Made by a program: the position numbers and the translations under genes. Of a stretch of DNA of 64,000 bases, positions 5,405-50,820 are shown one piece after another (positions within the stretch are counted from its first letter, which is position 1; each line of letters opens with the position of its first letter). This DNA comes from Tessaracoccus palaemonis (lineage in GTDB: Bacteria; Actinomycetota; Actinomycetes; Propionibacteriales; Propionibacteriaceae), in contig NZ_CP079216.1 of assembly GCF_019316905.1 (NCBI RefSeq), positions 2,480,001-2,544,000 on the forward strand, written 5' to 3'. The notes under the pieces are model-generated. The model ran no database searches, was not told the origin of the DNA, and worked only from the letters and a program-made list of their open reading frames with translations.

Positions 5405-5504
5405 GCCGCGATGAGCACGACACACTTGTCGTCGCCGAAACTGGCGGGTGTTAACGCTGACAGGGCCGATGAGCAGGAGGATGTGCTCATCGGCCCTGTC
5501 GACG
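5405..5504. repeat. ~100-bp direct repeat, copy 1
   Basis: Bases 5405-5504 recur at 5766-5865 with about 95 of 100 positions identical (differences: four in an 8-base patch near 5435-5442, one at 5496). The unit holds a small hairpin (ACGACA-CACT-TGTCGT) and a long one at 5459-5500. Copy 1 lies 46 bp after the gluD stop. The stretch 5359-5869 has no convincing gene. Confidence 0.85.
5459..5500. terminator. 17-bp perfect hairpin inside repeat copy 1
   Basis: Arms 5459-5475 (GACAGGGCCGATGAGCA) and 5484-5500 are exact complements around an 8-nt loop. It probably terminates the glu operon. The same hairpin in copy 2 (5820-5836 with 5845-5861) has one change that leaves a G-U pair and would terminate pntAB on the other strand. 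Confidence 0.75.
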
Positions 5505-5597
5505 GGCTCAACCTCGTCGGCCCACCGCTGGCCGGGGCGATGCCAACACGTCGCCCCTGCTCTGCCCGACTGCCCGGTCTGCCCGCTCAGCCCTCCC

Positions 5598-5734
5598 GAA
5601 AAGCGGTCAGTGCCCGATTCTCCTCACCTGACCGGGGAGAATCGGGCACTGACCGCTTTTCCGAGGGCGCCGTCGGCCGGGGAGTGGGCGCTTCTCGTCA
5701 CCGGACCGGGGAGAAGCGGCACTGACCACTTTTC
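5598..5734. repeat. 26-bp perfect palindrome with a third repeat copy beside it
   Basis: Bases 5598-5623 and 5636-5661 are exact inverted copies with a 12-nt loop. A third, direct copy of the same unit lies at 5704-5734, matching the 5630-5661 copy except at a few positions. The unit reads GACCGGGGAGAA-n-CGG followed by CACTGACC-n-CTTTTC. No coding capacity. The group is flanked by the two 100-bp repeats. Confidence 0.8.
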
Positions 5735-5765
5735 GGAAGCGGCGACGAGGTGCTGACCTTCGGAT

Positions 5766-5865
5766 GCCGCGATGAGCACGACACACTTGTCGTCGAGGCA
5801 AATGGCGGGTGTTAACGCTGACAGGGCCGATGAGCAGGAGGATGTGCTCATCGGCCTTGTCGACG
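5766..5865. repeat. ~100-bp direct repeat, copy 2
   Basis: Second copy of the 5405-5504 unit, offset by 361 bp, ending 4 bp before the pntB stop codon. Its position just after pntB suggests that this is the native pntAB terminator and that copy 1 is a duplicate, or the reverse for gluD. Confidence 0.85.
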
Positions 5866-5869
5866 TGTT

Positions 5870-7273
5870 TCAGGCGGTCACCTTCGACGGCAGCTCGGCG
5901 ACGATCTGCTCGACCGACTCCTTCGCGTCTCCGAAGCACATCACCGAGTTCTCGTTGAAGAACAGCGGATTCTGCACGCCCGCGTAGCCCGCACTCATCG
6001 AGCGCTTGAACACCACGACGGTGCCCGCCTCCCACACCCGCAGCACGGGCATGCCGGAGATCGGCGAGCCGGGCTCCATGGCCGCCGGGTTCACGGTGTC
6101 GTTGGCGCCGATCACGAGCACGACGTCGACGTCGCCGAAGTCGTCGTTGATCTCGTCCATCTCGTAGACGATGTCGTAGGGCACCTTCGCCTCTGCGAGC
6201 AGGACGTTCATGTGGCCCGGCAGGCGGCCGGCGACGGGGTGGATGCCGAAGCCGACCTTGGTGCCGGCGGCGCGGAGCCGCTCCGTGAGCTGCGCGACCG
6301 AATGCTGCGCCTGCGCCACGGCCATGCCGTAGCCCGGCACGATCATGACGGACTTCGCGTCCTTCAGCAGCTGCGCCACCTCGGCGCGGCTGGCCTCGCG
6401 GTGGTCGCCGTACTCCGTCTCCGGGCCCGACGACACGTCGTCGCCGAAGCCGCCGAGGATCACGGAGACGAACGACCGGTTCATGGCGCGGCACATGATG
6501 AAGCTCAGGATCGCGCCGGACGCGCCGACGAGCGCGCCGGTGATGATCAGGACGCTCATGTCGAGCATGAAGCCGCTCGCCGCGGCCGCCCAACCCGAGT
6601 ACGAGTTGAGCATCGACACGACAACGGGCATGTCCGCGCCGCCGATCGCGGCGACGAGGTGCGCGCCCAGCAGCAGCGACAGGACGGTCGCGATGATCAG
6701 CGCGATGATCGACCCGGTGGCGACGTACCACCAGCCGAGCCCGGCCAGCAGGACGACGATCAGCAGGTTCAGCCAGTGCCGACCCGGCAGCGTCAGCGGC
6801 TTCGACGAGATGCGCCCGTTCAGCTTGCCCCACGCGACGAGCGACCCGGTGAACGTGACCGCGCCGATGAAGACGCCGAGGTAGACCTCGAGCGTGTGGA
6901 GGACGTCGTGGTGCGTCGCCTCGAGGTGCACGTTGTAGCCGACGAGCACCGCGGCGGCGCCGACGAAGCTGTGCAGCAGCGCGATCAGCTCGGGCATGCC
7001 GGTCATCTGGACCTTGCGGGCCTTGTAGACGCCGATTCCGCCGCCGACGGCCAGCGCCGCGTACAGCATGATGGCCGCGTCGAACTGCAGGTTGTGGTTG
7101 GCGTAGTCGGTGTAGGCGATGGCGAAGTTCGTCGCGACGACGGCGAAGACCATGCCCATGATCCCGAACACGTTGCCCTTGCGGGCGGTCTCATGCTTCG
7201 ACAGGCCAGCGAGCGCGAGGATGAACATCAGCCCCGCGGCGATGTAGGTGGCGTTGATGAAGTTGGTCAGCAT
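5870..7273 (-). CDS. pntB: NAD(P) transhydrogenase, beta subunit
   Basis: The 467-residue PntB subunit of proton-translocating transhydrogenase, which drives hydride transfer from NADH to NADP+ using the proton gradient. The N-terminal half carries about eight or nine membrane helices (domain II). The C-terminal ~180 residues form the NADP(H)-binding domain III with [12 protein letters not shown] and later [10 protein letters not shown], both strongly conserved. Length matches E. coli PntB (462). The ATG at 7273 is 3 nt after the pntA stop, so the two are co-translated. A hairpin repeat follows the stop. Confidence 0.96.
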
Positions 7274-17386: not shown

Positions 17387-17507
17387 GACGCCACCCTTAC
17401 CGACACACGCCACCCTTACATGCAGGCGCCACCCTTGTTGACACATGCCACCGCCCTGGCGGTGGCATGTGTCAACAGCGGTAGCGTCGGTCAAGAGGGG
17501 TGGCGTC
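17387..17507. repeat. Palindromic 19-bp-iteron element, copy 1
   Basis: Three left iterons (GACGCCACCCTT-type, period 19) at 17387-17443 and two inverted ones on the right flank a central hairpin with perfect 18-bp arms (17438-17455 and 17458-17475) and a 2-nt turn. The element occupies the space between the convergent acyl-CoA oxidase-type gene and the ATPase gene. The right-hand iterons have a few changes. Further copies lie at 18976-19096 and 50682-50820. Confidence 0.9.
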
Positions 17508-17556: not shown

Positions 17557-18837
17557 TCACGGCCCCAGGAGCGCCAGCGGCACCACGAACACGCCGTCCG
17601 ACCTGCGGTAGGCGTAGCGGCCCGGGTAGACCACGACCCGCGCAGCGAGTCGTTCCCCGAGGACGCCGTGCAGCCAGTTGAGATGGCGCACATCCGCGGC
17701 CTCGACCGTGCCGGCGAGCTTCACCTCGATCGCGACGACCTGGTGATCGTCCCCCTCGACGATCAGGTCGATCTCGTGCTCGGTGTTCTTGGTCCGCAGG
17801 TGGCCGACTCGTGCCCCTGCCGCCTCCGCGTAGACCCGGACAGACTGGGTCACCAGCGACTCGAAGAGAGCGCCGAGCCAGGTGACAGCCCGGGCTCCGG
17901 GCAGGGGGTGACCCACACCCCGGAGAAGGCTCTGCTTTCCAACGCCCACAAGGCGGGCGGCCAGCGCAGGATCGACCAGGTGGTGCTTCGGCGCCAGGGT
18001 GAGCCGCTTCAGGGGCGCGAAGGCGGGAATCCACGCCTCGACGGGATCGAGTACGAAGATGCGTGTGAGGTGCTCCCGATACACGTCGGCCGTCTGCCGG
18101 GCCGGCTTGTCACCCTCGCCCGGCGTGGCAGCGTCCAGAACCGTGGCGTACCCGGCATCGGTCGAGGTCGCCGCGGCATAGGCGGCGAGCCAGGCGCGCA
18201 ACGCGGCGGGCCGGCGCACAGCTGCCCCGTTCTCCGGCAGCTCGTGTTCGACGATCCGGCTGAGGTAGCTGTCGAGTTGCAGCCGGCGGGCACGGTCGGG
18301 CAGATCGCGGATACCGGGCAGTCCCGACCGCATGATCTCGTCGACGTAGTCGTCGAGCGAGACCTCCGACGTTCCTTCCACCTCCGTCACGTCGCCGGCG
18401 AGCAGTGCGGCCAACGAGACGCGAGGCTCGAGCAGACCGCGCTCGCTGATCGCGAGCGGACGCATCGCGAGTCGCACGATCCGTCCAGCACCGGAGTGAA
18501 CTCGCACCCCCGGTGCCACGCCGGCTGAACCGGCGAGCAGGAACCGCCCCCCGGTGGGGTCATCGTCCACCGCATGTCGGACGCGATCCCACACTGCGGG
18601 TTCCAGCTGCCACTCATCGATCAGGACCGGCGTTGGCACCTGAACCACGAGGTCCGGATTGGCGGCGAGGGCCTCACGTTGCCCGGCGGCTGTCAGGGTG
18701 AGCACGGTGGAGGCACGCTGTGTTCCGGTCGCGGTCTTCCCAACTCCCTTGGCGCCCTCCAGCGCGACCGCAGCGAGTCCGCCGGGGATGAACACGGAAT
18801 CGAGTAGGTCGTCAACGATCCTTCGCTGGTACGGCAT
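17557..18837 (-). CDS. AAA ATPase with C-terminal DUF4143 domain
   Basis: A 426-residue protein of the AAA_14/DUF4143 group, of unknown cellular role. Walker A is GAKGVGKTA (residues 28-36) and Walker B PVLIDEW near residue 72; GRFLLAGSA is the sensor-1 region. The C-terminal ~130 residues include EIDLIVEGDD and VAIEVKL, an arrangement like PD-(D/E)xK nuclease folds that is common in DUF4143 proteins. The ATG at 18837 is 6 nt from TAGATT in the first of four tandem 23-bp repeats. The gene is bracketed by two copies of an iteron element, which hints at movement as a cassette. Confidence 0.85.
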   Translation of the reverse strand: MPYQRRIVDDLLDSVFIPGGLAAVALEGAKGVGKTATGTQRASTVLTLTAAGQREALAANPDLVVQVPTPVLIDEWQLEPAVWDRVRHAVDDDPTGGRFLLAGSAGVAPGVRVHSGAGRIVRLAMRPLAISERGLLEPRVSLAALLAGDVTEVEGTSEVSLDDYVDEIMRSGLPGIRDLPDRARRLQLDSYLSRIVEHELPENGAAVRRPAALRAWLAAYAAATSTDAGYATVLDAATPGEGDKPARQTADVYREHLTRIFVLDPVEAWIPAFAPLKRLTLAPKHHLVDPALAARLVGVGKQSLLRGVGHPLPGARAVTWLGALFESLVTQSVRVYAEAAGARVGHLRTKNTEHEIDLIVEGDDHQVVAIEVKLAGTVEAADVRHLNWLHGVLGERLAARVVVYPGRYAYRRSDGVFVVPLALLGP

Positions 18838-18840
18838 GCG

Positions 18841-18932
18841 CTCAATCTAACATTTGGACGAGTCTCAATCTAACATTTGGACGGATCTATATCTAACATC
18901 TGGACGAGTCTGGATCTACCATCTGGACGAGA
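18841..18932 (-). repeat. Four tandem 23-bp repeats carrying -10-like boxes
   Basis: Units at 18841-18863, 18864-18886, 18887-18909 and 18910-18932; the first two differ only at the last two bases and similarity drops with distance from the gene. On the minus strand each unit contains a TAGATN box: TAGATT, TAGATT, TAGATA, TAGATC. The one nearest the ATPase gene is 6 nt from its ATG and is the likely promoter -10. Change in unit number by slippage could alter expression. Confidence 0.85.
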
Positions 18933-18975: not shown

Positions 18976-19096
18976 GACGCCACCCTTACCGACAGACGCC
19001 ACCCTTGTTCGCACATGCCACCGCCCTGGCGGTGGCATGTGTCGATAGCGGTGGCGTCGGTCGGTAGGGGTGGCGTCGGTCGAGAAGGGTGGCGTG
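18976..19096. repeat. Palindromic 19-bp-iteron element, copy 2
   Basis: Two left iterons (18976-19013) and three inverted right iterons, all on a 19-bp period, flank a hairpin with perfect 14-bp arms (19012-19025 and 19028-19041). It lies between the upstream end of the ATPase gene region and the 3' end of the DUF3048 gene. In arrangement (2+3) it is the mirror image of copy 1 (3+2). Confidence 0.9.
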
Positions 19097-50549: not shown

Positions 50550-50660
50550 CGGCTCGTTGAGCTTGTCGAATCGCCCTGAGCGCAGCGAAGGGTCCCACCC
50601 AAGCCACGTTTCGTCAGCGCTGGCGCGCTTCCTCAACGCCCTTGGACAAGCTCAGGGAAC
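50550..50660. repeat. GAGCTTGTCGAA-type intergenic repeat pair
   Basis: CGTTGAGCTTGTCGAA and GCCCTGAGCGCAGCGAAGGG (about 50554-50592) face CCCTTGGACAAGCTCAGGG (50639-50657). Sequences of this kind are common intergenic palindromes in high-GC bacteria. They fill the space between the malG-like terminator and the iteron element. Confidence 0.6.
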
Positions 50661-50681: not shown

Positions 50682-50820
50682 GACGCCACCCTTACGTGCA
50701 GACGCCACCCTTACGTGCAGACGCCACCCTTCTCGACACTTGCCACCCCCATGGCGGTGGCAAGTGCGAACAAGGGTGGCGTCCGTCGGTAAGGGTGGCG
50801 TCCGTCGGTAAGGGTGGCGC
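50682..50820. repeat. Palindromic 19-bp-iteron element, copy 3
   Basis: Three left iterons (50682-50736, starts 19 bp apart) and three inverted right ones flank a hairpin with 14-bp arms (50737-50750 and 50753-50766, one mismatch). The right end is 4 bp from the ygfZ stop. The stem carries ACTTGCC/GGCAAGT where copies 1 and 2 have ACATGCC/GGCATGT, a paired change on both arms. Confidence 0.92.

Follow-up and report, generated by a model that had tools for sequence, protein, structure and literature searches.

What purpose arrays of inverted 19-bp iterons serve in the gaps between genes, and which protein acts on them, is the question raised by the element at 17387..17507 and its two relatives in the window. 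The window is the whole stretch of 64,000 bp that was analyzed and corresponds to positions 2,480,001-2,544,000 of genome G000 (a single contig of 3,204,344 bp), in which dnaA is found at 343-828.

Each copy consists of inward-facing arrays of 19-bp iterons built on a 20-bp palindrome, GCCACC-N8-GGTGGC, and the GCCACC and GGTRGC boxes are spaced by exactly 19 bp on both sides. The copies and their box positions were read directly from the sequence. Copy 1 (17387..17507) has GCCACC boxes at 17390, 17409, 17428, and 17447 and GGTRGC boxes at 17461, 17480, and 17499, with the core box pair at 17447-17466. Copy 2 (18976..19096) has boxes at 18979, 18998, and 19017 and at 19031, 19050, 19069, and 19088 (core box pair 19017-19036). 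The boxes of copy 3 (50682..50820), a solo element, are found at 50685, 50704, 50723, and 50742 and at 50756, 50775, 50794, and 50813 (core box pair 50742-50761). The three copies and the strict period described in the sequence-only reading were recovered as given. The central hairpin of that reading is present as an inverted centre, which is the innermost inverted iteron pair with 8 bp between its boxes; the counts of 3+2, 2+3, and 3+3 hold without this pair and become 4+3, 3+4, and 4+4 when it is included. With up to one mismatch, GCCACCCTT occurs 26 times in the window versus a shuffled mean of 12.41, a value reached in 0 of 100 shuffles. A separate feature is found at 5430-5890 of the window, where two almost identical palindromes, with their centres at 5479 and 5840, flank a third, stronger one at 5629 (24/26); these palindromes are unrelated to the iterons.

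Copies in the genome and in its relatives

The whole genome of G000 was searched with a two-iteron pattern allowing up to 2 mismatches, which gave 66 + 70 occurrences versus 0 + 0 for the reversed control; recognizable cores numbered 33 versus 0. At least 35 elements are present, 33 with a recognizable core and two without. The proposal of a dispersed repeat therefore extends well beyond the three copies from which it was made. Confinement to these copies or a match to a known annotated family had been named as outcomes against it, and neither was found: Rfam gave 0 matches over the window at the gathering threshold, and relatives of the element occur in other genomes. One element (L037, G000:C1:358472-359956) is interrupted by approximately 1.4 kb with the short direct repeat GACACAT at its ends, which resembles an insertion sequence. 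Many intergenic gaps, for example at approximately 50553-50660 of the window, at L031, and at L145, are occupied by another dispersed repeat, of the type ...CTTCGACAAGCTCAGGGAACCGG..., which is unrelated to the iteron arrays.

Gene orientation around the 35 elements was determined with a simple purpose-made gene caller and compared with the background of its gene calls. The elements lie between convergent genes in 19 cases (p = 1e-5), between tandem genes in 15, and between divergent genes in one (p = 0.002). An intergenic position next to gene 3' ends, as first described, is thus the rule, the exception being the single divergent case.

For 23 G000 elements, the flanks match those of elements in the sister genome G021, mostly at 90-98% identity, and some of the orthologous pairs, copy 3 of the window among them, differ by whole 19-bp units. 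Twelve G000 elements have no partner in G021. The G021 counterpart was read for 6 of the 12 and contains no element; in the counterpart of 748618, two convergent stop codons are separated by only about a dozen bases. Presence and absence between relatives, put forward earlier as a check on the repeat, are thus seen at six sites. Five G021 elements are without a partner in the list of G000 elements. G000 lacks a 2.3-kb stretch of G021 in which a nuclease pseudogene is accompanied by three palindromes of a second flavour. Neither 748618 nor the 2.3-kb insertion showed a clear target-site duplication; the relative is simply without the element.

A model of the G000 copies matched G021 at 70 places, counting both strands, and seven other genomes weakly, so that 9 of 60 genomes were positive with G000 included. 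Several of the weakly matching genomes carry the same plan with other box sequences. A flavour-agnostic pattern with up to 2 mismatches was found in 19 of 39 genus genomes; the reversed control gave 1-2 matches in 7 of the 39, six of the 19 positives are single matches, and some of these are chance. With up to 1 mismatch, the pattern was found in 21 of 198 family genomes; these belong to three genera, of which one is represented by just one doubtful match, and the reversed control gave 0 in all listed genomes except one. The pattern GCCANC is biased: it is absent from G022, G034, and G035, whose bracketed or palindrome-flanked genes have other boxes. Element presence is patchy, and the flavour differs by genome. 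The repeat has no match among plasmids and phages, and among named genomes the G000 flavour was found as one stretch in Halorubrum, probably by chance. Elements of different flavour stand beside homologous neighbour genes at G000:C1:536512 and at L171 (G007:C6), which are perhaps the same ancestral site.

No element was found in 1,194,829 bp (37%) of G000 opposite dnaA, a gap from 1,175,677 to 2,370,506 (P = 5e-6, 1 of 200,000 simulations). The largest element-free gap of G021 lies in the same chromosome half (P = 0.048), the two genomes being close relatives whose gap statistics are not independent. The arrays could on these grounds be chromosome-organizing sites of the host, for nucleoid occlusion or segregation, which are kept out of the terminus, and their conservation at the 23 orthologous sites is consistent with such a role. 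We consider this very unlikely, since presence is patchy, each genome has a different flavour, and the elements bracket genes. The gap in the terminus half of G000 may reflect biased insertion, the purging of copies, or some part played in organizing the chromosome.

A bracketed gene for an AbiEi-type protein with a nuclease fold

Clustering of the neighbour genes of 78 element loci gave no universal partner. An AbiEi gene formed one small cluster, which became clear only once its homologues were located. The gene, with one match in G000, is found at G000:C1:1174606-1175520, outside the window, and is bracketed by elements at 1,174,473 and 1,175,677. Its 305-aa product is probably the partner of the repeats. 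The best homologues in G021 and G023 are likewise bracketed by a pair of elements in the local flavour, and palindromes stand at either end of the G007 homologue, whose reading frame is interrupted by one TGA. The protein matches three Tsukamurella plasmids and gave no match among phages.

The N-terminal part of the protein resembles an AbiEi antitoxin, including its DNA-binding domain. AbiEi antitoxins of type IV toxin-antitoxin systems lack the additional C-terminal nuclease fold, and the G000 gene, in contrast to theirs, has no adjacent AbiEii-type toxin by Pfam; its two neighbours gave a weak bacterial PH domain or DUF6057 at E 0.026. The C-terminal fold matches the homing endonuclease I-Bth0305I and Vsr. 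Residues E193, D226, E237, D239, and K243 are invariant in an alignment that left out the G007 gene with its TGA, the G021 pseudogene, and L190. The EDxHD motif of such nucleases includes a conserved histidine, and no invariant histidine was found after residue 77 in the homologues. The protein therefore shares its nuclease fold with Vsr-like homing endonucleases and differs from them in lacking this histidine, in its AbiEi-like DNA-binding part, and in being encoded between its own inverted-iteron repeats.

Element and gene co-occur within the genus: both are present in 16 genomes, the element only in 3, the gene only in 4, and neither in 16 (Fisher p = 8.8e-5). Because some pattern positives are chance, the count was repeated with a stricter pattern, giving 12, 1, 8, and 18 genomes, respectively (p = 4.3e-4). 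Palindromes of at least 19/26 stand close on both sides of the gene at 11 of 30 homologue loci, in flavours quite unlike that of the window. At 18/26 or better they are found on both sides at 20 of 40 loci, on one side at 15, and on neither at 5. The palindrome threshold misses true ends, such as the left end of L180, and a comparison of the two flanks with each other is therefore the better test.

The two flanks match each other (E <= 1e-5) at 33 of 40 family loci and at 26 of 29 class-wide loci, 28 of these 29 being outside the own family; the loci are the best-scoring matches and not a random sample, some reach contig ends, and those shared by G000 and G021 and by G004 and G002 are orthologous and not independent. 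Among the controls, mismatched flanks matched in 1 of 300 cases and random intervals in 0 of 300. A looser cut-off of E <= 0.01 matched 35 of 295 mismatched flanks. At these 33 and 26 loci the gene is bounded by matching terminal repeats, as an insertion sequence would be. The match is specific to the gene: in genomes with two or three nuclease genes, a gene's own flanks match in 23 of 24 cases, compared with 3 of 36 when the second flank is taken from another such gene in that genome. Neither test had any cases removed from its counts.

In several genomes the repeat found at the gene is present as numerous dispersed solo copies as well, and dispersed flavours were also compared with individual genes. 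G172 and G173 contain many dispersed copies, and the nuclease genes first examined there had other flavours. The sole remaining gene of G172 and one of the two remaining genes of G173 carry the dispersed flavour, as expected beforehand. The G170 nuclease gene agrees only partly with the dispersed flavour of its genome, and the second nuclease gene of G023 (L269) has another one. Three states were found at the locus of the second G002 nuclease gene: a solo element in G005, two elements with no gene in G004, and element-gene-element in G002. The relatives thus hold an element at the site, and the states are compatible with gain or loss of the gene.

The AbiEi-type protein could instead be a regulator whose operators are the repeats, both those beside its own gene and the dispersed ones, the nuclease-like domain serving something else. 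Such a regulon would fit the inverted repeats that AbiEi antitoxins bind in their own promoters, as described in PMC7319586, and the iterons singly conform to the consensus. It is unlikely in view of repeats on both sides of the gene, a dispersed set found mostly at gene 3' ends and only once between divergent genes, and locus states with and without the gene. It is also quite improbable that a transposase acting in trans moves the ends and that the AbiEi-nuclease gene is only cargo or an addiction gene. The gene-specific match between nuclease genes and ends across many genomes argues against a passenger, as does the fact that two of the dispersed flavours could be assigned to a nuclease gene; element pairs that bracket other genes, such as an HTH gene in G021, argue for one.

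The window holds a further example of the latter arrangement. The gene between copies 1 and 2 (17557..18837, minus strand) encodes a 426-aa AAA_14/DUF4143 ATPase (Pfam DUF4143 2.3e-21, AAA_14 2.2e-6; PADLOC PDC-S01 7.6e-69). It is not the partner nuclease and is possible cargo. The slot of G021 between neighbours matching those of this gene contains different genes, and element pairs therefore also bracket genes other than the nuclease gene; these may be carried along or swapped through recombination. A DUF4143 homologue in G004 (L138, element at 3,196,907) adjoins an element of another flavour, and genes of this type may be recurrent cargo. Three operator-like 23-bp direct repeats (74-100% alike) are found at 18863-18931, upstream of the DUF4143 gene and between it and copy 2.

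Probable binding sites, proposed mechanism and known systems

The variation among copies bears on whether the arrays act as protein sites or as RNA. For G000, 32 of 36 loci were aligned, leaving out the two halves of the split copy and the elements at 404010 and 667750. The arms pair in 82.4% of cells versus 83.5% after shuffling, and double changes number 29 versus 45.1. In the 28 copies of G023, arm pairing is 0.538 versus 0.567 shuffled. Since neither value exceeds the shuffles, each iteron appears to keep the consensus independently, as a protein site would. The arrays of G000 are accordingly predicted to be protein-binding sites in preference to RNA hairpins. Of the three possibilities raised by the sequence-only reading, the mobile palindrome and the protein-binding array seem to be aspects of one thing, and an RNA structure at transcript ends is unsupported by the pair counts in G000. 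An RNA or cruciform element was likewise unsupported in G023. The arms of the 8 copies of G015 do pair better than shuffles (29 of 2000 shuffles attain the value), and near-perfect 58-bp palindromes are found in G173, G170, G028, and G004.

These palindromes would also suit bidirectional transcription terminators or RNA hairpins at convergent gene ends, as would the convergent setting of over half of the G000 elements and the core hairpin, which folds as single-stranded DNA at -13.6 kcal/mol (z -4.66). Terminators have no need of gene specificity on both sides of one gene family, and together with the pair counts of G000 and G023 this makes them a highly improbable explanation.

The elements are likely to be recognition arrays and terminal parts belonging to a selfish element with a single gene. 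The AbiEi-type domain would bind each 19-bp iteron, and the nuclease would cut or nick in the palindromic core or close to it. Through repair or copying, the gene might then be inserted together with a second element, in a homing-like or IS-like manner, or an element without the gene might spread. Gene loss, for example by recombination between flanking copies, would leave solo elements like those of the window. Copies landing in promoters or genes would have been purged, which would account for the bias to gene 3' ends.

REPs mobilized as REPINs by a RAYT share several of these features: the repeats are extragenic, dispersed and placed at gene 3' ends, their flavours are lineage-specific, and a linked single gene is flanked by them. 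The convergent context of the G000 elements resembles the extragenic context reported for REPs in PMC3733652, which also describes a GTAG or CGTC tag beside the REP stem. GGCGTC occurs within the iteron, which lacks a stem that it could tag: for four single 19-mers, folding was not better than for shuffled sequences (z 0.35, -0.44, -0.57, and 0.17). The Y1_Tnp domain (PF01797) was found in 0 of 39 genus genomes, G000 included, versus 5 of 14 control genomes, and RAYT-driven REPINs are rejected on this count. The unit here is a 19-bp iteron with no hairpin of its own, and the linked gene combines an AbiEi-like part with a Vsr-like fold. The solo elements are best read as recognition arrays and end copies of a selfish nuclease gene of a homing-like or IS-like kind, in a system analogous to REP-RAYT that is made of different parts.

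IS elements with MITEs or solo LTR-like remnants are similar in having one gene between matching repeats together with gene-less copies. They differ from the elements described here, in which no transposase domain was found, the ends are palindromic multi-iteron arrays of variable length, and no clear target-site duplication was seen at the two sites named above; ISfinder was outside this comparison.

We lean towards a class-wide family of mobile elements, so far unrecognized, that would be driven by an AbiEi-type domain with a Vsr-like nuclease, each enzyme reading only its own palindromes, and many solitary actinobacterial "AbiEi antitoxins" would be such nucleases. No description of this system was found in the open-licence literature. 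If correct, the proposal would provide the actinobacterial proteins currently labelled orphan AbiEi antitoxins with a function and with a target that can be tested, and a new type of enzyme would stand behind dispersed bacterial palindromes where RAYT is absent. Because each gene has its own repeat flavour on both sides, many natural pairs of a DNA-binding domain and its cognate site are available, with which one could test directly how AbiEi-type domains recognize their sites and how selfish nucleases spread. Selfish genes may then also be among those counted as toxin-antitoxin or defence genes.

At four of the class-wide loci (L234, L237, L241, and L254), the ends of the nuclease gene begin with a common AATGATCATGT word. 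In L234 and L241 this word is present at both ends as an inverted pair, which looks like a true terminal repeat.
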